Source: Clavelina lepadiformis
Taxonomy: Eukaryota > Chordata > Ascidiacea > Aplousobranchia > Clavelinidae
Length of the DNA stretch: 64,000 bases
Assembly: GCF_947623445.1 (NCBI RefSeq)
Contig: NC_135245.1
Location: 1,185,501-1,249,500 of the forward strand
Direction: 5' to 3'
The notes under the pieces: generated by a model
Databases searched by the model: none
The model's input: only the letters and a program-made list of their open reading frames with translations
Told to the model about the DNA's origin: nothing
Program-made: the position numbers and the translations under genes
Shown here: piece by piece, positions 4,831 through 64,000 of the stretch
How positions within the stretch are numbered: position 1 is the first letter of the stretch
Layout of the letters: each line of letters begins with the position of its first letter

Positions 4831-7800
4831 TTAAGTTTGAGTTTCTTCAACTTGTACGCCAGGAACGCCGCCATCCGAAGTCGAACGAACTGACGAAAAT
4901 ACAGTGGTGAGATTCTGACGAGTTTTGGCCACCATTTTGTCGACCAGATTGGAATAAAGTATCGGGTTTAGCGAGCTGTTGATCGGGAGCAAGACAATTG
5001 CAGTTATGGCGTAAGCCACGTCGGAGACTGGGACGCCACTGAAGTTGATAAACGCCATAATGCAGAGTGGTATCCAGCAACAGAAATCCGTGATCACAAG
5101 TCGAAGGATTTTGTTTTGAAGTTCTAAAAATTTACGATTCGCAATAACCAAAACAATTGTTTGGTGGGAATATTAAAAACGCGTTGCATACAATGCAATA
5201 TCATCTACATAGTTTTGGCAGAAGTGTTTAGTCTATAAATGGTCATTTTTTAGTAAATAAATAAATTTATTGAAACCATCCATTGATTGCAAAACACTCA
5301 CTTTTAGCCGAACTTTGCTTTCCACGTTTCCCACCAGAAGTGTTACCAGTCGGCATCAATTTCTTCTTTGACGTGAAGTAGAGAGCGATGTAGGTGCAAG
5401 CGACGTAGATAAAAGCAAGAAAATTGAAGATGTTCACTGAAAGAGAGAAAGGCCAAGATCCTTCCTCAGAAGTTACAAAGATTCGAGGAAGACAAACGCT
5501 GTTGGCACTGTAGTAGCTGTTGAAATTATTAAAGACTGGTGCTAGTTAACCTGGCCCTACTTCTCTCCACAAAGAAACTCTAATAACCTGAGCATCCTTC
5601 AGTGCACACTCACCCATAGTAACGTGATATGTCCAATGTTTTCTGTTCCACTATTCCTCGTTTGTTTAAAATATCCTGCAGTTGACCCCAAGTGGTTGCA
5701 TCTCTTATTTCTGAGATGGTTTCGTTTGGAAGGCTGGCGTAGTTTGGGTCAAAGGTCAACATTCGTTCGGCCCAAACTTTAACGACATCATAGGACGCAG
5801 TTGCGCTTTTAAAGAACGGGTTGTCTGCAAGTGTTGCTCTATCGGTGAAGATGTGTTCCAAAGATGGAAAAAACGGAAGAGCGGCAATCACTCCTGCGAT
5901 GATCCAACTCATCGCGATCATGATAAGAACAGACACGAGCTTCGGACAGAGTGAAGCTTTAAACGGCTTTAAATAGGAATAAGTTGCAAAATAATTCTCC
6001 AACAAAAAGTTGTATTGAAGTAAAACGTCTGTTATTTATAACAACTGAAGACTGTTTAGACAAACACCACTACAAGTGATGCATACCAAGTTTTTTATCC
6101 TAAAACAATAATTAACATCCCATATATCCCAAGTTGAATTTCCAGAACGTTCAACATAAACTTACCTTAAGAATGACGTAAAGCCGAAGTGACGTCAATA
6201 ATATCATTGTGACCACAGAGCATTCGCTGGAAAAAACAACCAGGACTCCCATTGTCAGGCAGGTGGCGCTAGAGAGCCAACGTAGAGAGTTGACGCAATA
6301 AACTCCGCTGAAAACGGCGTCCATAATTGCCAGCATCAAGAGATATATCCCCATAAAGAAATCGGCTACGGCCAGGTTAAACACGAGAAGGTGATTGGCT
6401 TGCATTGAAGCAGACTCGAATCGACCGAGTTGACGAATTTCACTGATAATGACAATCTGAGAACATGAAGTTGTCAAACTCAAATTTCAAACAGCTGTAG
6501 AGTTAGTGTTGCAATAACATTACTTTATATCGCGGGATCTCTGCGAGTCAGTTACGAGATTTGTACTCATGCTTTGGAAAGCTAGCATAAGTATAACTAC
6601 TTCTACGTCACAGATATAATTTACGCCATTGCCGCATATAGCCAACACGCCCATTATCCAGACGATGGCGCGCAAGATAGGGTTAGCAATGAGATGATAT
6701 CTTGAGGAGAAAGGGTCATCGTTCGAGAACCTGGTGCCAGATGGACACTCGTCGCTTAAGTCGTCACAATCGCCGTGCCCGTCAAATATCTAAACGCAGT
6801 TTGTCAATCCAACGGTTGAAAATGCTTAATGACAAGTTAAAATGTGATGTTTAGGTTTAACTAATGGTATAGGTTGCACGTCGTTAAGTTGACAATGCAC
6901 ATTGTTATCACTTTCAATTATCCACCTTTTCCTTTGTTACAAACAGAGGACTTTTGTCTTGGCAATAAAATCTTCCGTCTGAATGGCAATTGAGTTCGTC
7001 CAGTGCATCCACGCAGTCAATTACGCCGTCACAAACGGTTTCATTTGCGACCGACACCTGCGCAAAGCGGTAAATGTGAAAAAAAACTTGAAAGTAGCAG
7101 AGTCGTAATGAATGGGGTCGGAGTCACTTTAGGGAAGCAGCAATTGAAATAGAAAGGAAACTCACTCTCACGCCATCTACGTTGCTGCAACGAAATCGCT
7201 GGGGACATATTTCTTCGGCTTCGTCTTCACCGTCATCGCAGACGACAACTCCATCGCATAGCGCCGCTAGTGGCAAGCTTATGAGATCTCCTGCTTTGCA
7301 ATAAAATCGTTCCGGGCAATACGTTTCGTCTTCTCCTGCAGGAAAATGATCTTGAATTTTTTTTTTATTTGCATTTGGGCAACTTTGGGTTGGACCGAAA
7401 AGCATTGTTACGTCACCTGAATCACAATCAACTCTTCCGTTGCAAACAGCTGATTTACGAACGCTGACATCTCGGTTGGCCTTGCAGTAATATCTGTCAG
7501 TGCAGTTGGCCTCATCCAAGCCGTATTCTTCCATTTCAGAACTGCTCGTGTCGTTAGAAATACTTCTGTTATTTTTGCTGTTGTCATTTCTCGATAAAGA
7601 GCGTTTTGTTTTGTTAAGTTGTGACGTTGGTGGGAATGGTGGCGGATGATTGTACAAATTCGGATTATATTCGTCATAGCTGTTTGAATGGTATTCTCCT
7701 CCGTAACCGTATCCACCGTATACATCTCCTTCGTAGTATGAATGGTTTCCATCGACTTCCGCATAATCCGGTAAACTGATTGTCTCTGTGCTGCCCTCAA

Positions 7801-10404
7801 TCGGGGACAAGGAACACTCAACAAAGCCATTGCATATCTCAAGCGCAGAGAAGTATGAGTTATAAAAATACAGATCTCCGACGTGGAGCCGTCCGTCGAA
7901 TGACGGTTGGCTAAAAACCTCGGCAGCTTCGGTGCAACGTTTATGGGACTCGATGGGAGGATTTATTTTCTCTGGCGGTGGCGCAGAACAACCCGACACT
8001 CTTTCGTCGGATGTTCCCGAAATCAAACATTCGTTGCGTCCGTCGCATAAAGTCGCGATTCCCTCAATCACAGGCGACCATGTTTTGTCGTAAGCGTTTC
8101 CGTAATTCCATCGTCGATTGACGTAACCAAAGCAAGCCAATCCACAGCGACATTTGTGCCCGAAATCGCTGACTAGACCATCCTGACACTGCAATGTGCC
8201 GGCGCAGTAGCTGTACCTGAAAAAATGTAGACCGTTAAAAAAATGCCGAATTTGTTTTTTTATTTCGGCCAATTGCATGTCGCGACAACGCTAAAACGTC
8301 GCGCTTTAAAGTCGTTTTAACGAACAAAAATATCATGACTCTGCTGACTTTTCGTCCCTGTTATCCCAACAATCTCCGGTAGAATCGCACACGGCCGATC
8401 GTTTGACGCACGTTCCATCTCCACACGTCACCTCCCCTACGTCACAAGTTGTGTTGGAAGGCAACCTGGTCAAATAGAAATCATAAAATACTTTCCTCAA
8501 TTTGCAAAAAATAAAATAAAAAATTATGAAAAACCAAAAGCATTTAAAAACAAACCGATTAAATATTGAGAGTTAATTTAGAACGCAATTTTATAAGATT
8601 TACTTTTAGAACACTCCAAACTCTATAATCTGCATGGAAACTATTTTCGCATTTTATGCAGCTTCTTTGCGGCTAATTATTTAATAATTGTCACTTACTC
8701 TTTGCGCCCACTTCCGCCTCGCATTGTGACGTAATTGCAGATTTCTGGCACATTCTCGCACAAGCATTCGTCTGTGAGATCAGAGCAGTCGATGACGCCA
8801 TCACACACTTTATGACGCGGCACGATCATGGAATCATCCAAACATTTGAAGCATTTTGCGCGGTCAAACTTGACAGATGATCGATGACGCAAATCCCTTT
8901 GGAGAAGGTTGAAAAATAAATAGATTGCCGAAGAGTTTCTTAGCAGTCTCTCGATTGGCGAAATATTGGAAAAAAATTTTTAGAGTTGTTTACAGTTTTT
9001 CTGGAAACCAAGCTAAGCTGTAGATGAAAGCGTTTGCGTTAGAAACAAGATTATTAATATTTTATAAACTTCGTTTTCTTAGCGAGAAAATTTTGTTTCT
9101 TTGCGGAACAAATTACAGGTTCTGTTTTTATTTCCGTAGATATTAACTATTGATGTACATTGTGCGGTGAATAGCATTAACAATGTGCATACGCGACCAG
9201 TAAAAATAAATTTAAATTCCATTTTTCAATTTTTTGGTTCTCAACTCAAGTGATCAAAGCCTAAATACGAGCAGGTAGGCTATAGTTAATTCCACAATAT
9301 CTTTAACGCGTTTACAATAAGGATAACATGTCAATAAACCAACATTGCAGTATCCACACATGTTTAGTAACTTATACCTTCCGTCGTCACCGCTAGATGA
9401 TGATATGTAGCACAGGTCTTCCCCACGGTCACAGTCTTCCACTCCGTCCCAAAGCAACTGCTGAGGGAGCATACACAGCGCCCCTTTGCGGACACACTGA
9501 AACCCGATGCCGTTCTTGAAACCATGATTTTCAAGGCAGCCCACGACGTTCTCACCGCAGCACAAACCTGACCTTTCTACGCACAATTTATGCTCGCCCT
9601 GGCATCGGTAATGACTCGGGCATCCTGCGTCACAAAGATCGACGTCATCACATCTGACGTAGCTGTCGCAGACGTACTTTCGATTGATTGCACAGGTTCT
9701 GTTTGATGACGTCATTTTGCAGCTAAGAAACAATGGATGTAGATTTAAGCAATTTTTGTCAAAAACTCGTTTAAATAATTTTCAACGGCTGACACATTTA
9801 CCTTATTTGGTCAATTTCGCATTCAGAGCAGTTTGTTGACGTCACTATTTCGTCACTTCCGTCGAAGCAATCTTCAAGTCCGTCACAGAACTTGAGCATT
9901 TGTATTTGCGTGCCGTCGAAACACGTAAAATCTGGAACAATTACATTCAGGTGAAAAGAAGCTTAAAATCGGGTCTTGGCCTGTGATATGAGGCAGAAAA
10001 AAGTCTCCAAGACAGTGAAAAATGTTGATTCGTTGACAAAGTTCACTCGAACATGTAAAGTCTGTTGTAGTTACCATAACAGTTATTCGACGTTGTACTG
10101 TGTACCGGTGATTCTATTTCTGTTAAAATATACAACTGACCACAATCGTTACGTTACAGCTTTTGATAAAAGTCATATATTTGTGTGAGGTTGATTTATT
10201 GCATATAAAGTGCAGTTGGAAGTTCGTTAAGTCAAAGTTGGAGAGACCAATTCAATTATACTTGAGTTATCCAAAATTTTCTGTTGGCGAATTTTACTTA
10301 ACCAGCTTCCACTACAATATCTAAAACTTACTGTTATTTTGCGCATGTACGTTGCACACTCTTGCAATGTTTACCAACAAGCAGAAAGCAAAAAAACAAA
10401 TCAT
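4831..10404 (-). CDS. LDLa-repeat rhodopsin-family GPCR (GRL101/relaxin-receptor-like), 12 exons
   Basis: Exons on the minus strand: 10332-10404, 9802-9931, 9378-9722, 8699-8896, 8349-8465, 7166-8216, 6926-7057, 6625-6789, 6166-6456, 5614-5996, 5302-5516, 4831-5123. Lengths sum to 3,393 bases (1,130 residues) with every phase consistent. The first exon encodes a signal peptide (MICFFAFCLLVNIARVCNVHA). About eight or nine cysteine-rich LDLa-type modules follow, with cores such as CDGVIDCSDLTDEC and GDCDDLSDEC. The large exon carries a Tyr/Gly/Asn-rich linker between modules. TM1 ends in ICGNG across an exon junction, TM2 has NLAVADFF, extracellular loop 2 is long, TM6 begins DFCCWIPL and TM7 ends LNPILYS. 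The TM6-TM7 wording is that of the LGR group. I see no leucine-rich repeats, unlike relaxin receptors or snail GRL101. The position expected for DRY reads S-L-R. Ligand unknown; probably a G-protein-coupled surface receptor. Confidence 0.85.
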
Positions 10405-12919: not shown

Positions 12920-13618
12920 TTAACACTAGAAGGACGGCAATTTTCGTATGGGTACCTAGAAGGACGGAGTGCGTCAATTGACGCAAAAGGTCAAAACGGC
13001 GCAAATCAAACGTTTTTTGTTGAGAAAACTGTGCTGTTGCTCCGAAAAAACTACTTCTATCGCATGTCCGCTTTGTGCATTTTAATTAACAAAAGTAATC
13101 GCATTGAAAATACAAGCACTCGTGCCTAAACACTTCTGTTTCACGCAACTCCTTTTTCTTCTTGCACTCTTCCGGGACTTCTCTCCTGTTCTGGCGCATT
13201 GTCCCTACGAGGCTGCACTTCTTTCAACGCCAGGTCAAGTGAGGTGAAAAAATTATCGCAAGTGACATTGTAACCTCCTTGAAAAAGCGGAGCCATGAGT
13301 TTCAGTACAACGTCGGTGGGCACACTCACGTGGGGGCTCCTTGTGTCATCTTTTCCAAGGTAAGGAAAACCGTTGAATAAATATTTGTTTTCAACGTCAA
13401 CTGCCAGCCAGAACTTTAGACCAAACTTGTCTGGTTTATTGGCCATATATTGGATGAACTTGCAGCGTGCCTTACACGGCAATAGTTGCTCATCCACAGT
13501 TATCTTCCACTGTTTCTTCCAATTTTTCATCACGGTTTTGCGATGCACCACTTAAAAGTTATAGATGCACTTAGGTTGAAAATGCGTCAATTGACGCGTC
13601 CCGTCCTTCTAGTGTTAA
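12920..13618. mobile_element. Non-autonomous piggyBac element
   Basis: TTAA lies at both edges (12920-12923 and 13615-13618), the hallmark piggyBac target duplication. The termini read CACTAGAAGGACGG on the left and CCGTCCTTCTAGTG on the right. A subterminal palindrome GCGTCAATTGACGC occurs near both ends, and there is a second AGAAGGACGG just inside the left end. At about 695 bp it is far shorter than an autonomous copy. It lies wholly inside an intron of the transposase gene of the surrounding element, so it inserted later. Confidence 0.88.
13141..13551 (-). pseudogene. piggyBac transposase fragment (DDE_Tnp_1_7 family, PGBD4-like)
   Basis: The minus-strand frame gives about 136 residues including TVDEQLLPCKARCKFIQYM, KPDKFGLKFWLAVD, YLFNGFPYLGK and NVTCDNFFTSLDLA. 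This wording is typical of the central part of PGBD/piggyBac transposases, and two of the acidic catalytic positions are present (D in TVDEQ and in TCDNFF). The N-terminal part, the C-terminal catalytic region and the cysteine-rich tail are absent. The fragment fills much of the short element and cannot code for a working enzyme. Confidence 0.85.
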
Positions 13619-25376: not shown

Positions 25377-28300
25377 CTTAGGTTTAATAACAGCATATTT
25401 TTATCATGTTATTATTGCTAATTTTAGATTGAGCTGTAGATTGAGTATACTTATGAGCATGTTGTACGTTTTATACATTTTTCAATAAGAGAAGATTATT
25501 TCAATTGGAGACAAACACACAATATAGTGAACACACAGTACCTCTGATATAAAGACATCTAATATCCGATACGCAAGATTGACATCAAAGAAAGTGGCAA
25601 ACAATGTTAAAAACCAGGATGACGCGAACATGGACGTATGAAAAGCCTGTGCTTGGAAATGGGCCATTAATTCAGACGAATGTTCCTGCAGGAGAAGTTG
25701 TTAATCATTCATCAATGAAATGCAATAGCATTCATAAACAAACAAATATCTCATCACATATGTTTGTTTACTACATTCACTGCTTGTTTCATTATCATAT
25801 TGGGCAGGGCATGGAAAAATTTACTGTGCGGCTGATAGCTATGGTAGCTGTAAAAAATCATGAAAGTTACTGTCGTTGCAGACTTGATAAACAGTCTGTG
25901 AACATGATTCATGTGAACTGGTTTGTTGCTGGAATAATTTTATTGCAAATGCAACTCAGGGTGGTCTGTGAATCAGTCCATGTTACGGTGACAACCAAAA
26001 AAAAGCGGCATTTATTGTAAAGAGTAAGTGGATCACACTGAAACAATATATTCCATATATATAACAGGCCCTATTTGATGTAAATTTCTTGATTTATCTG
26101 TTTTTGATTAAAAACCATATGACAAATAACTTTCCCAAACTGCACACTTGTAACTACGTTGTCTATCTTGATATTAACACACACAAAGAAAGGAACAGAA
26201 AGCACATTGTTCCAATGTAAGCAAAATCAGATGTACTCTGGTTTTCTATAAACCAAGAGCATTATTACATCTACAAACAACATTATTTGCTTTGTTCACA
26301 TTTACAACGTGGCAAATATGAGGCACCAGTTTTCAAACATCATATTCATGCAACAGGTAATGATATCTGCAGCATAACATGGCCAATTATATAGTGACTG
26401 ATAAAAGCACAAAATATATCCAAGGATTTTTGCTCTATGAACAGTACAAGTCATGAAATGAAAATGGTGAGAATGTTTTGTGTGCTAACGTGTACTGAGG
26501 GCATGTGCACCACAAATGCAAAAAAATTCCGTTTTACACAACAAACTCAGCAACACAGGAAGCAAGACACGTAATGTGCAAGAGAAAGTAGTAGTAAGTA
26601 TAATACTTGGTGAATAATAGACTGCAAAAAATAGGGAAGATGGGATTTAGCTCAAGATAAAACTTGCCTTGTTGTACGAAATCGATTACACCAAGTAACC
26701 TGGTATGACCTACAGTCCAATTTTGCTAACGTACCAAATTTTTGCTAACGTAGGCAAAATCATTAGAAGCGAAATCTATCCAAAATTTAATTTAACTTTA
26801 CACTTCCAGGACAACATCGAACAATGCAGCCATATTACAACAACAGTGGCATCCAACGTGAAAGTAAAGTAGGCTAACCACCTTTTAAATTCTTCTTTTT
26901 TGGTTTAGAATGTTTTGACAAAGTGCTATCTTTTTGTTTAGACAAAACGCAGTTTGTTGACATGACGCCGACATGTTTACGTCAACCCACTAACCTGCAA
27001 AAGGTTTTCGAGCTGGTACATGCACAGACCAAGTTCCGCCATGGATGGTTTGAAAAGTTCACGAAGGCGATAATCCCGCATCAGCGAGACAAAGACACAA
27101 AAAGCCTCCTCCTCTGGCATTTGCAGAAGAAGCAAACCGGCTATAAACGCACTTCCCTGACAATATCCAACTTCTCTGTCCATCAGCGAATAAGCCTGCA
27201 GAAAAATGTTGGCAGGTTTGAGATTATATAATAGTTCAAAGGTGTTAGACCCTATTCCAAATGAGCATGTGTATATATCAATCGGTATGGTACACAGAAA
27301 AAATTCCCAAATTTACATGAGTTTTGTTCAATTGTGGAAAATCATTGGTTTCTATTATTACTTTGATAACATTGAAGAGAACTTCTTGTCCATTTCCGTC
27401 CTTTTCTTTGAAAAATTCTTGCTCAGGGTAAGTTCTCGCAATATCTCTTTTAATTAATTTTTCAGACGGAGATCTTTGCTTTAAAAATTCGGCATATTTT
27501 TCACGGTGGGGTGAATTGTGAGCTTCACAGAGAAGCTGCCAGACCAGTCCACGAAAATGCTGTGGTATGCCACAACGAATCATTTCCTGAATCAATTAGA
27601 AATGTTAGACTTCCTTCTCGGTATTTCCCAACGCAGGTCATATTTAAAGAAAACACGTCAAGCATGCATTAAATTTAACTCAAAGTAATTATCAAGCTAC
27701 ATGAAGCCTGTATCCGGCAACAACATAGTAGCATACCTTTAACTGCTTTCCATTTCTCTTTTTGAATTCATACCAATCGTTGACAATCCTGCCCCATATA
27801 ACCCAAGTTTTGTTGTCTGAATTATGCAGCGATGTGCTGTTGTTCCCGCTATCGTTACTGTTCGACGATGCGCTGTGTACAGAGACTGATGTAGGTGATG
27901 CAGATCCATTACTGCTCCTCCGGGATGTTGCGAAGTTAATTTCACTTGAAACTGACTTCAGAGATTTACGATCAGATTCTAGTAACCTGCGAACAAGACA
28001 GTTGGTGAGATTTTACAGACATTACAATAAACTAATTGCAAAAATATCGAGACTAATAAAAACAAAACCAATAACAAATCAACTAAACATAGAGATATAC
28101 AATTATACATACAATAAATCATGCTATATAGAAAAAATAAAATAAGTAAATACAATAAACACTTCTATGCTTAAATATATAAGCTACCGATTTTGCTCTT
28201 CTATCTTGGCAAGTATTTGAATTTCTTCTGCGTTTAACTCTTGATGTGAAGCGCCAAAGGTAGGGCTTGATTCCGATCTCATGGAACGCATATCTGCTGA

Positions 28301-42114: not shown

Positions 42115-45100
42115 ATGGAAGAATTATCGCCAAGAGACATAAGTGAAGAAGTTAATAATCCAAAATGCAATACAAAACATGCTTCTGAAGCCTTGTATGA
42201 CCTCTTAAAACCAAATAAACGTAAGTTGGTTTATAATTAAAACTGTGTGTGTGTGACCAGTTTGCTACGTTTCACATTAACTGAATAATCATCATCTGTT
42301 TTAAACATTGTTACAAATGTTAAAAAATCCAACTGTTTCTTTAAATTTTAGCAGGTGGCGGTGTTTCCACTGCACATGCCCAAGTCCAGCACCCGCTTGT
42401 GAAGAAGGCAATTAGCAAACTGAAGAAGTACGAATAATAATTCTTTGCTATAAGTAAAAAGGTTTCAAATTTCAAAGCTAACTTTTATCCATTTGCAGTT
42501 GCACATGTATTCATAATCTCAAGCTTTTCAAGTGTTTGCATTTGAAATACCAGTTGTTTGTTTTCTGGGGATCCTCTTATTCTGTTAGTTTGTGAAGCTT
42601 CATTGTTTACATATATGCCAGTTATACAATAGTGAAATATAAATACTGTTTTATTATATTAGAACAAAGGATTCCGATTCCGAGGGCATTTTAGTAAAGG
42701 ATTTGCATCAGTTAAACAAACGTTTTATGTCTGGTCACTTGCCAAGAAAAAAATCTCATCATAAATGTGATGACTCAGACACAGACGACGACGATGATGA
42801 GGATAATAAAGAAATCCCACCAAAAGCCACTGGAATGTTTGCAAAGGTTCATTATTTGTCTAACAGTTTACGATTATCCTACATTTCTGAGTAGGTAAAA
42901 CATGCTGGTGGCCTGATACATCTTCCTGATGTGTATTTGTTTCTTCGATGAACACTTTTCAAGTATTTTGTTGCAGCTTCTTGTTACGCAAATTCAACTT
43001 GTCACCAAAGCCCGAAACTATGCTTTAAAGTATGGTTCAAAAGTGAGCAAGACCTGGCTTAGGAACATCATTCCAACCAACCAGATTGTAACACTCGCAA
43101 GTTTCCTGGTGTACACTTACATTCTAAATGCCCAGTTTCTCTCCATTTTTATTCCTTTAGCTCTGTTCTGTATTGGTTTCATTGTCATGATTTTTTCCAC
43201 ACTGCGCAGTGTTAGAGGTTGGTGCTAACTTCAAAATGTTGATATGATAATAACAATTATACTAAAATTCAGTTGAAATAAACCATTGTAAGGAAGCTGA
43301 TATATATCAAACTTTGTTGATAAATTACATTTATTAAGTAATGCTCAAGCCCAGTTGAAGTGAGGGTTTTTCTTCACTTTGTTTAGGTGAAAGTCGCTTT
43401 AAAGAATTTGTGGCCTGGTCCAATTTATTGACCTCCCTGGATACAGTAATGGACGTTGTTGAAGCCGAGGATAACTACTTTAAGAATCATATTTCGCCTT
43501 TTGTTTCTATGCCATTTGCAGCGTTACTTACTGTCATGTCATTTGCTATCTGTCCACAAGATCCGATGCCAAAAGCTGAGATTGCTTTGATATCTTTGGG
43601 CCTTTGTGTCACCAGCCTGGTGTCATTTAAGGACAGTTTTTACTGGCAATCCTACATGTCTTTTGCTTTCCAAATTGTTGCTTCTCTGTTAGAAAGTTTT
43701 AATCGCTTTTCTTCTGATGTCGCCGTGGTAGGACTTTCATTTGAAGTAATGGGTGGAGTTATGATCCACTTCAATCTTGCCGTCTTGTTCCGCATTGCTT
43801 CTCTTGCCCTTGCAATTAGCTTGCCGTTTCACAAGAAATTTCGAAGCATTTTTGCTGGAATCATGCGAGGCTTAGCTCCCTGGTTGTTTGTCGCCATCTG
43901 GTGGGAAGTGTTCTCACTTTTTTTCCATTATACGACTGTCAAGACTCTAACGAGAGCTGGGATGGAGGTTTTTCTCCTGCTTTTCTCACTTCCTTCCGCG
44001 ATCCTAATCTTCGGATATGGCTTGTTCAAATATCTTTTGCAGCTTCCGCTTCTAAAAATTTTTGTTGTTGTCACGATGCTTGGTGCTGGTTATTTTGTTA
44101 CCAGAATATCTCGGGCCGGACAATCACTTTCGTCACGCTTCAGATTGAGCAAGTTCGGACCCGCAGCAAAGATCATGGTATACACATTGTTGATGCTATC
44201 TGGGCTGATGCTGTTTGTCACTTACAGTCCAGCTGGTTCCCAAGTCTTCAATTCCAGCCTCACTTGGGATGATTATCAAAGTATTTGTCACAACAATGAA
44301 GCAAGCGATGGCAATGAAGCTCTCACAAAACAGTATTGCCACCATCTTAATGGCCACCACATTAATTGGGCAGGAAATATAAGTAACGTGCGGATAGTGG
44401 CCATTGAAAACAAGGTACAATAGCTATGTACAACTTTACAGAAATGCCACTAGACTGCAAATATAAAACTTGCTGAAAACTTTATCTAATCTATCTGCAT
44501 TGGTGATAATAATGAAAAACATGAATAGATGTGATTGTTATATAGATTACACTGTAGATTTAAAACTACCTTCACATTTTAAATCGTGTTTTTACAGTTC
44601 GAAGCAGTTGCGAATGTTTTGCCATCGTATTTATCTGACTGGTTGTCTTGTACATTTGGAGATGAATTCCCTTCCCAAGATTACTGCAAATCTTCCCTCA
44701 ACAACAAGATGCTTTGTGCGATATCGAAGCACAACCGCAGGGAATGCAACCTTGAACGATACAACAAATACCAGTTCTCTTTCGTTGCTGAAATGCTCAA
44801 CGTCGATCAAACACATGGGTCCATCAAAATCAGTGCAAGCAACAAATTTAAGGTAAAAAGAATGAGAATTTTATCGATTTTATGTGAATGCTCTGTAGCA
44901 AGCAGATGATTGAATTAAGCTTTTAGGGGATAGTTGCCTTTTAAAATATATCATTGTGTTAGCAGTATAAGATTTGCTATTTACTTGTGCTTAATTGTTA
45001 TCAGCTATTCTTCAATGTTGTCAATGGATTTACTTTATTTGAAGGATCTTGCTTTCCACCTGCGGCCAGGAATGACAGTTTGCTACAGTGGCTTACTCAA

Positions 45101-48968: not shown

Positions 48969-49164
48969 TTGCTGATCAAAATGAAGGTAACTAGTTTGAA
49001 GAAATACAAATCGGCTGAAACCCGTGACTAATTTTGCTAATTTGCTGTTGGCTATTGGTATGCGAGCATTTCAATATGGTTGTTGTAAGTAGCAAATTTA
49101 TAATCGTTTATTTTATAAACTTAGGTGTTTTCTGTAAGTTAAAGCAAAATCTCATAAGTTATTG

Positions 49165-50823
49165 ATGGCCGAAATACGAAGCAAAACTCTTCAAAGAAAA
49201 CTTCAGGATGATCAGAAGTGTAGGAACATCTATTGTGACTTCACAATACGATATGAAGATCAAGAATTTCATGTCCATAAATGTGTGCTAGGAGTTTTCT
49301 CGGATTTTTTCAAAACCATGTTTGTTTCCAGAATGAAAGAAAAATATGAAAACGAGGTCAAATTACCTGAAGTTTCTGCTAAAACAATGAGAATTGTCAT
49401 CGAATTCCTTTATGATGATGACGTCAAAGTTAACAGGGAGAATGTTTATAACTTGCTGTCTGCTGCTGACTTTTTACAGATTTCTGTTTTGAAAAAAGCT
49501 TGCCGGGATTACTTGGAAAATAATTTCAGCGATAAAACAGCAATAAAAGATTGGGTAATGTTGCGTAGATATCAAGCGCAAAGCCAGTCGGTAGAAACAA
49601 AAATTGTGGAAAATGGAGCTTCCATTTTTAAGCAGAAAGCAGTATTAGAACTAGATGAAAACGATTTTGAAATTTTGTTGTCTTTGACTAAAATGCACAT
49701 CGCTCCTTCTGTGAGGTATAAATACATCATGAATTGGATAGAACATGATTGTAGCGTCAGAATGAAGTATCTTGATTCGTTGATAGAACACGTCGACTTT
49801 TCATTGCTCCCGAAGAAGTTTTTAACTGAAATTGTTTCCAGAAATGAAGTGATTCGTAAATCTGCAACAGCAATGGCCAGAATCTTGGACGCAGTCTGTC
49901 AATTTTGTACTGACAATTCTTCTAATGGTTGTAAGGTGGCCTTTTTTACATCATGTGATGACGAAGACCAGCTCCATCAAGATATACAGAAGCTACGAAT
50001 GTTCAGTGCTGAGGCTATTGGATGGAAAGAGTTGGCATCTTTTCCTTGGAAACACCGAACAGCCGGAATACTAATTCAAAACGACAGAATTTACATGTTA
50101 GGAGGACACCAAGCCAAGAGCAAATCTTCAAAAAAGGTAAAATACTTGAATCTCTATGACGTGTCGTCCGATTGGACGGATATGACGTCAATGCACACAG
50201 CAAGGCGAACTTTTGCTTGTACAGTCTACAAAGACTCCATCTATGTAGCTGGTGGTCGAGTGCACGACTCAATGTGGACAAAACAAGTCGAATGTTATGA
50301 CTTTGAAAGTGGAACGTGGTTCCAAAAGGCTGGAATGATTCAGAGACGAGCAAGACACGCGACAGTCGCTCATCGTGGATTATTGTATGCGCTTGGTGGC
50401 GAACCAAATCGATCATCTGCTTTAGAAAGTGTCGAATATTACGACGGTATAAGTTGGAAAGAGGCCGCTTCCATGAACAAACCAAGATACGATTTCTCTG
50501 CAGTTGTGCTTAATGACCAGGTATACGCCATTGGCGGCGGTGACGAAGATGATTTGACTTCGGTTGAACTTTACGATCTTCGAGCAAATGCCTGGCATGA
50601 CGTTGCATCTATGACTAAACAAAGACATGGTCACGTGTATGCCTGTGTAGCCAATGGGAAGATATACGCGATGGACGACAAGGACCAATCAGTGGAAGTG
50701 TATGATCCAATTGTAGACGAATGGAGTGATGTTACACAGATACCTGGGGACCAAACAAATGATGATGATTATATTGATTTCAGCTCCATTGAGAGTTGTT
50801 TATTCAGTGAGGATGAGGATTAA
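49165..50823 (+). CDS. BTB-BACK-Kelch protein A (KLHL-type CUL3 adaptor), intronless
   Basis: A single uninterrupted frame of 552 residues starts at ATG 49165 (MAEIRSKTLQRKLQ). The BTB domain spans about residues 20-120: CDFTIRYEDQEFHVHKCVLG, FSDFFKTMF, VIEFLYDDDV and LLSAADFLQI. The BACK domain follows to about 235 (CRDYLENNF, WVMLRRY, VLELDENDFEILLSL, YIMNWIEHD). Kelch repeats fill about 280-530, seen as YMLGGH, IYVAGGRVHD, LLYALGGEPN, VYAIGGGDEDD and VEVYDPIVDEW. The tail is acidic. KLHL proteins normally recruit substrates to CUL3 ubiquitin ligases through these three parts. No orthologue among vertebrate KLHLs is obvious; it groups with the three related genes downstream. Lack of introns suggests descent from a retroposed copy. 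Confidence 0.93.
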   Translation: MAEIRSKTLQRKLQDDQKCRNIYCDFTIRYEDQEFHVHKCVLGVFSDFFKTMFVSRMKEKYENEVKLPEVSAKTMRIVIEFLYDDDVKVNRENVYNLLSAADFLQISVLKKACRDYLENNFSDKTAIKDWVMLRRYQAQSQSVETKIVENGASIFKQKAVLELDENDFEILLSLTKMHIAPSVRYKYIMNWIEHDCSVRMKYLDSLIEHVDFSLLPKKFLTEIVSRNEVIRKSATAMARILDAVCQFCTDNSSNGCKVAFFTSCDDEDQLHQDIQKLRMFSAEAIGWKELASFPWKHRTAGILIQNDRIYMLGGHQAKSKSSKKVKYLNLYDVSSDWTDMTSMHTARRTFACTVYKDSIYVAGGRVHDSMWTKQVECYDFESGTWFQKAGMIQRRARHATVAHRGLLYALGGEPNRSSALESVEYYDGISWKEAASMNKPRYDFSAVVLNDQVYAIGGGDEDDLTSVELYDLRANAWHDVASMTKQRHGHVYACVANGKIYAMDDKDQSVEVYDPIVDEWSDVTQIPGDQTNDDDYIDFSSIESCLFSEDED

Positions 50824-52634: not shown

Positions 52635-54245
52635 CTAGATATCAAAGATATCTAGTCTAAACTCATTAGCTTGCAATTTTGTATCTTTGACCAATTCACT
52701 CCATTCATCCACAACTGGATCATAAACCTCCATTGATTGTTCCTTTTCGTCCGTCGCGTATATCTTCCCATTGGCTACACAGGCATACACGTGACCTGAT
52801 CTTTGTTTGCTCATAGATGCAACGTCATGCCAGGCATTTGCTCGAGGATCATAAAGTTCAACCGAGGTCAAATCATCTTGATCACCGCCAATGGCGTATA
52901 TCTGGTCATTGAGCACAACTGCAGAGAAATCGCATCGACGCTTCTTCATAGGAGCAGCATGTTTCCATCGGACACCGTCGTAATATTCGACAGATTGTAA
53001 TATGGTTGACTGATTTGGATTGCCGCCAAGTGCATACAATAGACCACGATGAGCGACCAAAGCATGTTTCTCTCGTTTGCTGATCATCCCAGCTTTGCGG
53101 ATCCACGTTCCGCGATCAACATCAAAAGATTCAACCTCACTAGACCATAATGTTTGATGCACTAGACCACCAGCTACATAGATTGAGTCGTTGTACGCTG
53201 CACAACCAAAACTTCGCCTTGCTGTGTGCATTGACGTCACCTCCTTTAAACCGGATGACGCGTTATTGAGGTCACAATACATTGCTTTATTTGAAGATTT
53301 GCTGCCATTTTCAAACCCTCCCAACACATAAAGTTTATCGTTCTTCACCACTAAACCTGCTTTTTTATGTTCACAAAGGGAAGTTTCCAACTCTTTCCAT
53401 TCCTCAGCATTAGCATTGTAAACCTTCAGTTTAAACGTTTCAGATATTATAACCATTTTGGAAGAAATTGAACAATCACCAGAAAGGCCGTCAGACGAGA
53501 TTTGACAAATTGCATCCAAAACCATCGCCATTGTGATTGGGGATTTTCGTATTGTCTCATTTTTCGAAATTTTTTCCACAAGAAATTTCTTTGGAAAACC
53601 CATAAAGTTTACGTTTTCCATTAACATGTCAAAGTAGTTTTTTCTAACTGTGGAATTTTGCTCTATCCAAGCCATGATGCATTTGTACTTTATCGAATTG
53701 TGAACTTTCATCAATTTAAGCAAATAAGAGAAATTATCAACATCTAACTCCAACAGGGAATTTTCTTTTATCACAGAGAAACTTTTTTCGCAAATTTTGG
53801 TTTCAAAGCAATTTGCATCTACGTTACAATTTTTCAATATCAACCAATCCTCGACTGATCTATCTACTCAAAAGTTATTTACCAAGAAATCCCGGCAAGC
53901 TATTTTTAAAGCAGAAATCTGTAAAAAGTCAGCAGCAGACAGCAAGTTGTAAACATTGTCTCTGTTAAGTTTGACGTCATCATCATAAAAGAATTCGATG
54001 ACAATTCTCATTGTTTCAGCAGAAACTTCAGATATTTTAGCCTCGTTTTCATGCTTTTCTTTCATTTCCGAAGCAAACATTGTTTTGAAAAAGTCAGAAA
54101 AACTTCCGACAACGCATTTATGGACGTGAAATTTGTCGTCTTCACATCGTATTATGAAGTCACAATAAATATTTTCATTCTTTCTGTCCGCTTGAAGTTT
54201 TCCTTGAAGGGATTTGCTTGACGATTTGAAATTTGAAAATGTCAT
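52635..54245 (-). CDS. BTB-BACK-Kelch protein B with an in-frame UGA between BTB and BACK
   Basis: From ATG 54245 (MTFSNFKSSSKS) to the stop at 52635 the frame runs 536 codons, broken once by TGA at 53868-53870, in the context NNF-stop-VDRSVEDWLIL. The part before it is a full BTB domain (CDFIIRCEDDKFHVHKCVVG, FSDFFKTMF, VIEFFYDDDV). The part after has BACK (VLELDVDNFSYLLKLM-like SLLELDVDNF, CIMAWIEQN) and Kelch repeats (LYVLGGFENG, IYVAGGLVHQ, LLYALGGNPN, IYAIGGDQDD, MEVYDPVVDEW). Frame is conserved on both sides and nothing else is damaged. The reading could be a fresh pseudogene, a polymorphic nonsense allele, or programmed UGA readthrough as described for Drosophila kelch. It resembles gene A most closely. 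Confidence 0.8.
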
Positions 54246-60627: not shown

Positions 60628-62280
60628 TCAGAATGTGTTATTCGCAGGCATCGATATGATTTCGTGCCACCGATCCACAACTGGATCATAAACCTCCACT
60701 GATTGGTTCATGTCGTCCATCGCATATATCTTGTGATTGGCTACACAGGCATACACGTGACCAAATCTAAGTTTTTTTAAACATGCGACGTCACACCAGG
60801 CATTTACTCGAGGATCAAAAAATTCAATTGAGAACAAACCACCATGACCACCGCCAATGGCGTATATCTGACCATTAAGTACAACCGTAGAGAAATTTTT
60901 TCGAGGATTGTTCATTGAAGCGACATATTTCCATTTTCTACCGTCGTAACATTCGACTGACTGGAAAGAAGAAGAATCGCCACCAAGAGCATACAATAAG
61001 CCACGATGAGCGACCAATGAGTGACGTGCTCTTCTACGAATCATTGGAGCTTTTCTAACCCAAACTTGACGGTTAACATTGTAGCATTCAACTTTGTTCA
61101 CAAAGATTCTCTTCTCCCAATGGTAACCACATCTCACACCACCGGATACGTATATGCAGTCTTCATAAACTGCACAACCAAAACTTTGCCTCGGTGTGTG
61201 CATTGACGTCATATCCTTCCAGCCTAATGATACGTCAGTGAGGTCCAAATACCTGGCTTCGTTTGAAGATTTATTTCCACTGAATAATGAGTAGCTAATG
61301 TCACTTTCGTATCCACCAATCATGTAAAGTCTATCTTTGTCAATCACTAAACCTGAATTTTTGTACTTGGGAGAAACGAAACCAAGTTCTTTCCAGTCTT
61401 CAGTATCAGCTCTAAACATGCGCAGCTGAAACTTGACCGACTTAGGGAACTTACTACGGCAATCGAAAGACGTCAGATAGGCCACCTTGGAATCTCCAGA
61501 AAAGTCATCATCAGAAAGTTGTATTTTTGCTTCCAAAGCCCTGGACATCGTGATTGGAGAGTTCAGGATCCAATCATTTTGCAAAACCACATCTGTTAAA
61601 AATTTCTTGGGAAGAGAATTGAGTTTCATGTCTTTTATCAACATATCAAGGTATTTCTTTCTAGCGTTGGGGTCTTGTTCAATCCAAGACATGATATATT
61701 TATATCTTTGAGAGGGTATAATCTTCCATTTTTTTCCTGTTAAATTCAACAAATGTCGAAAATCGTATCCATCTAGTTCTAAAACTGCTTTTTGTTCCAA
61801 AATCGATTGTAGATTTTCAGATATATGTTCTTCTATCTTGCCGCTACGAATGTGATATCGCTTTAGAAATATCCAGTCTGTTAAAACTGTCTCAGAGGTG
61901 ACGTTATTTTCCAAGTAATCCTGGCAAGTTTGTCTTAAAATAAAAATCTGTAAAAAGTCTGCGGCAGCCAACAAGTCATAAACATTCTCCCGTTTAATTT
62001 CGACATCATCACCATAAATGAAGTCAATGACAATAACCATCGTTTCAGCGGAAACAGTATGTATTGTGACTTCATTTTCAGAATTTTCTTTCATACTTGA
62101 GGCAAACATTGCTTTAAAAAAAATTGAGAAAATTCCAACCACGCATTTGTGGACGTAGAACTCTTGCTTTTCGACTCGTATTAAAAAGTCACAATAACTT
62201 TTATTGACTTTGTAGTCTTCTTGAAGCTTTCTCTGAAGAATTCTGCTTCGAAGTTTTTCGCTGGTGGTGCTACGCAACAT
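60628..62280 (-). CDS. BTB-BACK-Kelch protein C, intronless
   Basis: A single frame of 550 residues from ATG 62280 (MLRSTTSEKLRSRILQ). The frame is open slightly further upstream but has no earlier ATG. BTB: CDFLIRVEKQEFYVHKCVVG, FSIFFKAMF, VIDFIYGDDV, LLAAADFLQI. BACK: CQDYLENNV, WIFLKRYHIRSG, VLELDGYDFRHLLNL, YIMSWIEQD. Kelch repeats: YMIGGYESD, IYVSGGVRCG, LLYALGGDSS, IYAIGGGHGG, VEVYDPVVDRWHEI. The tail ends PMP-like in SMPANNTF. Gene D, 478 bp away on the same strand, is a close tandem copy. Expected role is substrate adaptor for CUL3 ligases; no vertebrate orthologue assigned. Confidence 0.93.
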   Translation of the reverse strand: MLRSTTSEKLRSRILQRKLQEDYKVNKSYCDFLIRVEKQEFYVHKCVVGIFSIFFKAMFASSMKENSENEVTIHTVSAETMVIVIDFIYGDDVEIKRENVYDLLAAADFLQIFILRQTCQDYLENNVTSETVLTDWIFLKRYHIRSGKIEEHISENLQSILEQKAVLELDGYDFRHLLNLTGKKWKIIPSQRYKYIMSWIEQDPNARKKYLDMLIKDMKLNSLPKKFLTDVVLQNDWILNSPITMSRALEAKIQLSDDDFSGDSKVAYLTSFDCRSKFPKSVKFQLRMFRADTEDWKELGFVSPKYKNSGLVIDKDRLYMIGGYESDISYSLFSGNKSSNEARYLDLTDVSLGWKDMTSMHTPRQSFGCAVYEDCIYVSGGVRCGYHWEKRIFVNKVECYNVNRQVWVRKAPMIRRRARHSLVAHRGLLYALGGDSSSFQSVECYDGRKWKYVASMNNPRKNFSTVVLNGQIYAIGGGHGGLFSIEFFDPRVNAWCDVACLKKLRFGHVYACVANHKIYAMDDMNQSVEVYDPVVDRWHEIISMPANNTF

Positions 62281-62758
62281 TATACTCAGAATCAAGTTAA
62301 TGTATTTTAAAGCCAATGATCAGAAATTTACATTGCCTACTTTCCTTAGTCGTCTGAAAGTTCATAAATGAATAATGTACAATAATTTTAAAATGGAATT
62401 ATCTCACTGATTTTGTATTAATGGATGCAATTCTTTCACAACCACTCTATCGATTGTGAATTTGGGTTTCTGTTTTCGTCACGTCAGAGACAAAAGTCTC
62501 AGGCAAAAATCATACCACCACAGTAACCAAGATAATCAGACAAAAGCGTACTTAATCAATTAAAAAGTTGTCACAAAACACGTAAAAGAAATGCATATAT
62601 CTGATGTCTAAAACGGAATTAAGCGGTGCGAGATCATGATAAAACCTTGTTTAATAATTTAGCCCTGATCAACGTCAATGTATTGTACAAATGCGAAATT
62701 TAAGACTTCAGTTATGTTTAGCAAATTGTTTCGGATAAGGCAATGGCCGTAATAGTAA
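62281..62758. other. Spacer between tandem Kelch genes C and D
   Basis: 478 bp holding the promoter side of gene C and the 3' flank of gene D. About 62640-62758 matches 60500-60627, including AAGACTTCAGTTATGTTTAG and TTGTTTCGGATAAGGCAA. No other feature seen. Confidence 0.6.
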
Positions 62759-64000
62759 TCAGAATGTGTTGTTCGCAGGCATCGGTACGATTTCATGCCA
62801 TCGATCCACAACTGGATCATAAACCTCCACTGAATGGTTTATGCTGTCCATTGCGTATATATTGTGATTGGCTACACAGGCATACACGTCATCGAACTTG
62901 GGTCTATTTAGGCATGAGACGTCATACCAGGCATTTACTCGAGGATCATAAAGTTCAACTGCGGCCAAACCTCTGTGATCACCGCCAATTGCGTATATCT
63001 GGTCATTAAGTACAACTGCAGAGAACCTTTGTCTAGAATAGTTCATCGAAGCGGCCTCTTTCCATTTTCTACCGTCGTAATATTCAACTGACTGCGAAGA
63101 CAAAGAATCGCCACCAAGAGCATATAATAAGCCACGATGAGCGACCAATGAGTGACGTGATCGTTTACGAATCATTGGAGCTTTTCTAACCCAAACTTGA
63201 CGAATAATATTGTAGCATTCAACTTTGTTCAGAAAGATTTCACTTTCCCCAGGAGTATGAATCTTCACACCACCCGCTGCATAGATGCAGTCTTTGTAAA
63301 CTGCACAACCAAAACTTTGCCTCGGTGTGTGCATTGACGTCACATTATTCCAACCCGACGATACATCACTGAGGTCCAAATACCTGGCTCCGTTTGAAGA
63401 TTTATTTTCATCAACCATTGAAAAACCATTGGCACTTTCGTATCCACCAATCATGTAAAGTCTATCTTTGTCAATCACTAAACCTGCATTTTCGTATTTG
63501 GGAGAAACGAAACCAAGTTCTTTCCAGTCTTCAGTATCAGCTCTAAACATGCGCAGATAAAATTTATTCCAGCGATTTAACTCCTGATCATAATCGTCTG
63601 AGGATAAATAGGCCACCTTGGAATCTCCAGAAAAGTCATCATCAGAAAGTTGTATTTTTGCTTCCAAAGCCCTGGACATCGTGATTGGAGAGTTCAGGAT
63701 CCATTCGTTTTGCAAAACCTCATCTGTTAAAAATTTCTTGGGAAGTGAATTGAGTTTTACGTCTTTCATTAACATATCAAGGTGTTTCTTTCTAAAACTG
63801 GGGTCTTTTTTAATCCACCACATGAAGTGGTTATATCGTTGAGACGATGTAAACTTCCATTTTTTTCCTGTCAGATTCATTAAATCTCGAAAATCGTATC
63901 CATCTAGTTGTAAAACTGGGTTGTGGTTCCAAATCGAACCATAATTTTCAGTGATGTGTTCTTCTATTTCGTCGCTACGAATGTGATATCGCTTTAGAAA
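62759..64000 (-). CDS. BTB-BACK-Kelch protein D, cut by the window edge
   Basis: The minus-strand frame is open from the stop at 62759 to the window end (about 414 codons), so the BTB domain and start lie beyond 64000. Visible: the end of BACK (FLKRYHIRSDEIEEHI, LQLDGYDFRDLMNL, FMWWIKKD) and the full Kelch part (YMIGGYESANG, IYAAGGVKIH, LLYALGGDSLSSQ, IYAIGGDHRG, VEVYDPVVDRWHEI), ending PMPANNTF as in gene C. Long exact DNA matches to gene C show a recent duplication. Some BACK positions that gene C keeps (for example WIEQD) have changed here to WIKKD. Confidence 0.9.
   Translation of the reverse strand, partial: FLKRYHIRSDEIEEHITENYGSIWNHNPVLQLDGYDFRDLMNLTGKKWKFTSSQRYNHFMWWIKKDPSFRKKHLDMLMKDVKLNSLPKKFLTDEVLQNEWILNSPITMSRALEAKIQLSDDDFSGDSKVAYLSSDDYDQELNRWNKFYLRMFRADTEDWKELGFVSPKYENAGLVIDKDRLYMIGGYESANGFSMVDENKSSNGARYLDLSDVSSGWNNVTSMHTPRQSFGCAVYKDCIYAAGGVKIHTPGESEIFLNKVECYNIIRQVWVRKAPMIRKRSRHSLVAHRGLLYALGGDSLSSQSVEYYDGRKWKEAASMNYSRQRFSAVVLNDQIYAIGGDHRGLAAVELYDPRVNAWYDVSCLNRPKFDDVYACVANHNIYAMDSINHSVEVYDPVVDRWHEIVPMPANNTF

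Follow-up and report, generated by a model that had tools for sequence, protein, structure and literature searches.

The window analysed here is a stretch of 64,000 nucleotides from the ascidian Clavelina lepadiformis (contig NC_135245.1, positions 1,185,501 to 1,249,500). Its main subject is a gene on the minus strand that runs from an ATG at 10404 to a stop codon ending at 4831 and appears to encode a G protein-coupled receptor (GPCR), in which LDLa-like modules stand in front of helices of the kind found in leucine-rich repeat-containing GPCRs (LGRs), with no leucine-rich repeat (LRR) found between them. The gene has 13 exons separated by introns of 79-481 bases, and all 12 joins are of the GT-AG type and leave the reading frame unbroken. 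A first-pass annotation had the coordinates, the strand and the number of joins right and had rightly described a complete gene, but its product is 1,093 residues long and not 1,130.

The receptor gene and its ectodomain

Exon 1 (10332-10404) supplies the start codon and a hydrophobic N-terminus (residues 1-25) that resembles a signal peptide by hydropathy only, in line with the annotation. Exon 2 (9802-9931) encodes LDLa-like module 1 (residues 22-59; Pfam 9.3e-09), and exon 3 (9378-9722) a cysteine-rich stretch (residues 68-183) that matches no Pfam family and is 54% identical to paralog L029. Module 2 lies in exon 4 (8699-8896; Pfam 9.2e-04, below the curated cut-off) and module 3 in exon 5 (8349-8465; Pfam 1.3e-07), its last cysteine being contributed by exon 6. 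Besides the end of module 3, exon 6 (7417-8216) holds a degenerate core, an unassigned cysteine-rich stretch, the linker and the start of module 5. The linker, which had been noted as Tyr/Gly-rich and is also rich in Ser and Asn, occupies about residues 430-525 (7505-7792) and carries a dibasic site, K-T-K-R, at residues 490-493; residues 332-488, which include most of it, are covered by none of the alignments to 12 paralog open reading frames. The bulk of modules 5 and 6 and the start of module 7 come from exon 7 (7166-7335; Pfam 6e-05 and 7.7e-04), the remainder of module 7 and the start of module 8 from exon 8 (6926-7057; Pfam 2.9e-05 and 0.054). Finally, exon 9 (6625-6789) joins the end of the membrane-proximal module 8, the hinge and the first transmembrane helix (TM1) in a single frame; the annotation had the modules running directly into TM1.

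Searched as a whole against Pfam, the protein shows six LDLa stretches (3.8e-22) and a 7tm_1 domain (1.1e-12). LRR families were absent from the matches at E<=1, and none appeared when the ectodomain was searched in ten pieces. Among those pieces LDLa was matched by seven at E<=1, by six at E<=0.001 and by three above the curated cut-off, and three matched no family at all. Eight LDLa-like cores emerge from a motif scan, of which, by our own reading, only that of module 3 has all six cysteines, and residues 24-684 contain 59 cysteines; the "eight or nine" modules of the annotation are thus reached only if degenerate cores count. Its description of an LRR-free ectodomain stands by Pfam, but "LDLa-only" is too strong, since no family is matched by exon 3, by the linker or by much of exon 6.

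The seven-helix domain

TM2, extracellular loop 1 and TM3 are encoded by exon 10 (6166-6456), TM4 and most of loop 2 by exon 11 (5614-5966), the end of loop 2 with Cys933, TM5 and loop 3 by exon 12 (5302-5516), and TM6, TM7 with NPILY, the C-terminal tail and the stop by exon 13 (4831-5123). The marks of a class A GPCR are present: seven helices, R3.50, W4.50, the disulfide cysteine of loop 2 (C45.50) and NPxxY (in paralog L031 the corresponding NPILY is visible in the alignment, our script having picked an earlier N-P-x-x-Y string). Against the PDB the helices match 8w1z (1.1e-23), RXFP1 (6.5e-23) and LHCGR (2.6e-21) at the top, and the first 18 of the matches listed are LGR-type or LRR-bearing receptors, the first other match being at 4.5e-07; the annotation as an LGR-like receptor is therefore upheld.

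The DRY position reads S-L-R, again as annotated, with Leu at 3.49, Arg801 (6184-6186, within S-L-R-L-Y) preserving R3.50, and Leu at 3.51. The window gene is not unusual in this, S-L-R being a variant of something more general: R3.50 is conserved and 3.49 is non-acidic in all 22 rows aligned from the same genome.

Paralogs and the integrity of the gene

Searching the assembly with the helices of the window protein gave at least 129 matches, which fall into 86 clusters. Of these clusters, 72 cover at least 250 of the 353 query positions; the 86 include relatives without LDLa as well as other LGR-like genes and copies that are interrupted or partial. Seven close relatives of the window gene, on both strands, are grouped at C5:5518367-5590471 of G000, and when the RXFP1 helices serve as query the top-scoring rows of the assembly are loci of the window gene's class. 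Two multi-exon paralogs, L029 and L030, match the ectodomain exons of the window gene in order. Identity to L029 is 49-64%, with no match for exons 1 and 2, which lie beyond the stretch fetched, or for most of exon 6; identity to L030 is 30-58%, exon 6 again not matching as a whole. In both of them the joins of the helix part fall at equivalent positions. In more distant paralogs one open frame extends from the LDLa array through the hinge to the helices, the longest being L031 (113-4084, minus strand), whose 1,324 uninterrupted codons hold 13 Pfam LDLa stretches and 7tm_1. Because such paralogs of the same assembly carry modules and helices without interruption, the exon chain of the window gene seems credible. 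Fifteen paralog open reading frames examined by Pfam contain LDLa and 7tm_1 (nine of them) or 7tm_1 alone (six), and none contains an LRR.

These comparisons bear on two other ways of reading the locus. First, the helices resemble those of RXFP and LGR receptors, and snail GRL101 combines many LDLa modules with LRRs (PMC8286064); the gene could conceivably be a type C2 (GRL101) or type C1 (RXFP) LGR, the LRR exons of which the model had missed. However, a single frame in exon 9 connects the last LDLa core, by way of the hinge, to TM1, the introns measure 79-481 bases, and the single-frame paralogs pass from LDLa to TM1 without an LRR. A simple LRR motif scan of the minus strand between 4000 and 14000, covering 100 frames of 30 residues or more, gave one match, upstream of the receptor gene. 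Furthermore, none of the 150 best LRR matches in the assembly starts less than 13 kb from any of the 86 helix clusters (the nearest lies at 37 kb), while some of the 150 best LDLa matches fall within 13 kb of 28 of them. Receptors of the RXFP/LGR3 type were, moreover, reported in a 2025 study to have been lost in urochordates (PMC11863921). We consider hidden LRR exons very improbable and rejected them on the intron lengths, the single frame of exon 9, Pfam, the motif scan and the assembly-wide LRR matches. Second, the model might have fused two adjacent genes, one for a secreted LDLa protein and one for a short GPCR. This is less probable still, and was rejected, because exon 9 by itself links the last module to TM1 and because the two domains share a frame in nine of the 15 open reading frames scanned from the same genome.

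In a tree of 25 rows, built from own-genome paralogs and three PDB receptors, the window gene clusters with L029 and L030 (98/98) and the LDLa receptors all form one group (88/92), with RXFP1, LHCGR and 8w1z apart (91/94) and the LDLa-less relatives apart (100/100).

The paralogs are under purifying selection. In seven pairs of more distant paralogs, the window gene being outside them, the ratio of nonsynonymous to synonymous substitution rates (dN/dS) lies at 0.17-0.76 in the 13 comparisons out of 14 that are not saturated, some values resting on few differences; in the helix parts it is 0.20-0.76.

This matters for a further alternative, in which the receptor would chiefly bind or take up its ligand, or signal constitutively, instead of being switched by it. 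LDLa arrays are typical of endocytic receptors, and the acidic residue at 3.49 is absent from all 22 rows. Lipoproteins or large proteins have also been proposed as ligands of the related Ciona receptors by Kamesh et al. (PMC2396169). Yet R3.50, W4.50, C45.50 and NPxxY are kept and the helix parts of the paralogs have been constrained; weighing both sides, we regard this alternative as unlikely, and a ligand-switched GPCR as the better reading.

An insertion in extracellular loop 2

Between W4.50 and C45.50 lie 87-104 residues in all 16 aligned LDLa receptors and 95-102 in four LDLa-less relatives, as opposed to 28 in L038a/b and about 20-26 in the LRR-bearing RXFP1, LHCGR and 8w1z (18-21 as aligned, which is too low because these three rows miss 2-5 residues between aligned blocks). 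The insertion, which in the window gene occupies about residues 845-925 in its exon 11 part (5614-5855), carries conserved positions across the aligned receptors. Its resemblance to known domains is slight: a 14-sequence profile gave weak matches only in the PDB (best E 0.18), and in Pfam five families each matched one of 14 members (best E 0.036). The annotation had let ligand recognition rest on LDLa modules only. This is not borne out, in view of the three ectodomain pieces without a family and of this long conserved insertion.

The LDLa-less L034-L038 are LGR-like receptors with neither LDLa nor LRR in the frames read; L034-L037 possess the loop 2 insertion and L038a/b do not. They look similar to 14 further Ciona receptors without recognisable ectodomain domains, described as an "unclassified LGR-like" group (PMC2396169).

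Two cysteines that come and go together

In all 16 receptors scanned, the fourth cysteine is missing from the membrane-proximal LDLa-like module. The fourth and sixth cysteines of an LDLa module normally pair with each other, and the sixth, where kept, is thus left without its usual partner. This sixth cysteine and a cysteine in extracellular loop 1 are both present in 19 of 61 rows and both absent from the other 42, with no discordant row (the 61 rows represent 60 loci, 19 with both and 41 with neither, as L010 and L047 are the same gene). Among 726 column-residue features between the hinge and TM3, only the loop 1 cysteine fits 61 of 61, the next best feature fitting 56, and well-supported branches of the tree force at least three joint changes, be they gains or losses. 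As the two cysteines are present or absent together, the simplest reading is that the last LDLa module is linked to loop 1 by a disulfide, predicted in the window gene to join Cys670 (6745-6747), past the membrane-proximal module, to Cys764 (6295-6297). A literature search aimed at such a bond found no report in the sources available, which is not proof of its absence.

The counts were obtained as follows. A first script scored 47 of the 72 rows (34 with neither cysteine, 12 with both and one, L071, with a shifted loop 1 cysteine). A second script agrees with the final scoring in 57 of 61 rows; in the others (L032, L077, L078 and L079) it took a later D-E pair, the cysteine following the module's own D-E. 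For the loop 1 column a scripted re-reading covered 60 of 61 rows; in the remaining one, L074, the stretch was too short, the row also has a gap in the comparison of 726 features, and the piece itself shows no cysteine at that place. Eleven of the 54 fetched pieces (L065, L068, L069, L080, L081, L083, L085 and L088-L091) were left out for having one site unreadable or no LDLa core seen; L080, L088 and L089 among them have the loop 1 cysteine with the proximal module unread, and L068, L069 and L081 lack it. L034-L038 stood outside the scoring. Stop codons occur inside the stretch used in L064 and L076, and in the piece in L048, L049 and L053.

Could the covariation instead stem from another pairing, or from free cysteines whose parallel changes were a coincidence? 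The independent joint changes number only about three, the tree has few columns and long branches, and two rows come near to being exceptions: in L071 the loop 1 cysteine stands two positions further on, in L057 a cysteine replaces the loop 1 tryptophan, and in both the proximal cysteine is absent. Nevertheless, no row of the 61 has one cysteine alone at the two sites and no other feature of the 726 fits. We hold this explanation to be rather improbable, and prefer the predicted bond between the module and loop 1.

Other features of the window

Upstream of the receptor gene, at 13144-13551 on the minus strand, lies a DDE_Tnp_1_7 transposase fragment (Pfam 2.9e-21), which we take to be of the piggyBac type. 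A TBC/Rab-GAP exon is found at 27281-27595 (minus strand; Pfam 1.5e-09); the adjoining minus-strand frames look coiled-coil and are presumably EVI5-like. A long open frame at 43359-44420 on the plus strand contains a wolframin cysteine-rich domain (Pfam 3.8e-12). The far end of the window holds a cluster of Kelch-like genes at 49138-50820 (plus), 52638-53867, 60631-62319 and 62762-64000 (all minus); by Pfam, BTB, BACK and Kelch domains occur in the first and third frames and BACK and Kelch in the second, the fourth being assigned by resemblance only.

Discussion

The class to which the window gene probably belongs is not new. In 2008 Kamesh et al. described 14 LRR-free Ciona receptors with LDL-A repeats and helices resembling those of relaxin/INSL3 receptors, named them LDLRR-GPCRs and regarded the class as a lineage-specific innovation and expansion; the corresponding expressed sequence tags came mostly from blood and haemocytes (PMC2396169). 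Judged from sequence, the window gene combines what characterizes that class: a number of LDL-A repeats within the range of one to ten, no LRR found, and helices of the LGR type. The likeness to the Ciona receptors, which is drawn from their published description, extends to the lineage-specific expansion, although the 32 receptors of the Ciona cluster and our 86 clusters, with partial and LDLa-less loci included, were counted differently. The annotation's suggestion of a lineage-specific class agrees with the large paralogous set, but such a class had already been published. The text of Kamesh et al. nowhere contains "ECL2", "insertion" or "DRY", and has "extracellular loop" in its references only; the loop 2 insertion, the P10-like alignment of the hinge and the covarying cysteines are put forward here as additions to the published class description.

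Other known systems share parts of this architecture. Snail GRL101, a type C2 LGR that we compare by description only, likewise sets many LDLa modules on LGR-type helices (PMC8286064), but type C2 receptors join multiple LDLa modules to LRRs, and of these the window gene shows the former with none of the latter found. Nor does it show the LRR ectodomain after a single LDLa that marks type C1: RXFP1, which with RXFP2 represents that type and shares the helices, has one LDLa, LRRs and a short loop 2, as opposed to several modules, no LRR found and a long loop 2. With LHCGR, FSHR and TSHR the window protein shares the helices and an aligned hinge, or P10, stretch before TM1; it differs from these glycoprotein hormone receptors in that no LRRs are found and the P10 cysteine is absent. 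Its ten residues F-S-S-R-Y-H-L-I-A-N (residues 682-691, 6682-6711) align with F-N-P-C-E-D-I-M-G-Y of LHCGR and with the P10 region of FSHR, which has been described as a tethered agonist (PMC9889800). From this arrangement we infer that the LRRs, provided the ancestor possessed them, disappeared from the region separating the LDLa modules from the hinge. A receptor piece elsewhere in the assembly, L091, has a P10-like FSPCENLLG hinge and possibly belongs to an LGR of the glycoprotein hormone or bursicon type.

Taken together, we read the window gene, with a probability of roughly 0.6, as a full-length class A GPCR that belongs to the LGR lineage and lacks LRRs, most likely a member of the Ciona-type LDLRR-GPCRs, and that is switched via a tethered last module. 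The acidic LDLa array would catch an extracellular protein or a lipoprotein-like ligand; the last module, deprived of its usual partner for the sixth cysteine, would be held on loop 1 by the Cys670-Cys764 disulfide; and its movement would displace the P10-like hinge, together with the long loop 2, across the helix bundle, turning the receptor on. More tentatively, and at somewhat less than even odds, the LRR domain may have been replaced by a different coupling device, in which the loop 1-bonded last module, the P10-like hinge and the enlarged loop 2 form a fixed "lever" through which the LDLa array directly drives the LGR helix bundle, one very large subfamily doing without the bond.

Several observations weigh against this reading. 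Most modules of the window gene are weak LDLa matches and most repeats here are not classical, unlike those of Ciona, which mostly are (PMC2396169). The missing LRR row counts for little by itself, because the assembly-wide LRR and LDLa lists are limited to the 150 top-scoring candidates, among which the modules of the window gene itself do not figure. As to the tether, 40 of the 42 rows with neither cysteine fall into one clade, so that the independent evidence amounts to about three changes and not 61, and the direction of gain or loss is not fixed; the 42 rows also imply that the tether is dispensable in the largest subfamily. Lastly, the lack of an acidic residue at 3.49 in all 22 rows may mean that the receptor couples in an unusual way or has a high basal activity.

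The role of the LDLa module in switching RXFP1 was called poorly understood in 2016 (PMC4837482). Receptors that possess LDLa modules but no LRRs allow the question of how such a module switches LGR-type helices to be posed in isolation, and the predicted Cys670-Cys764 bond offers one simple test of it. For the animal itself, the expansion suggests a large repertoire of orphan receptors.

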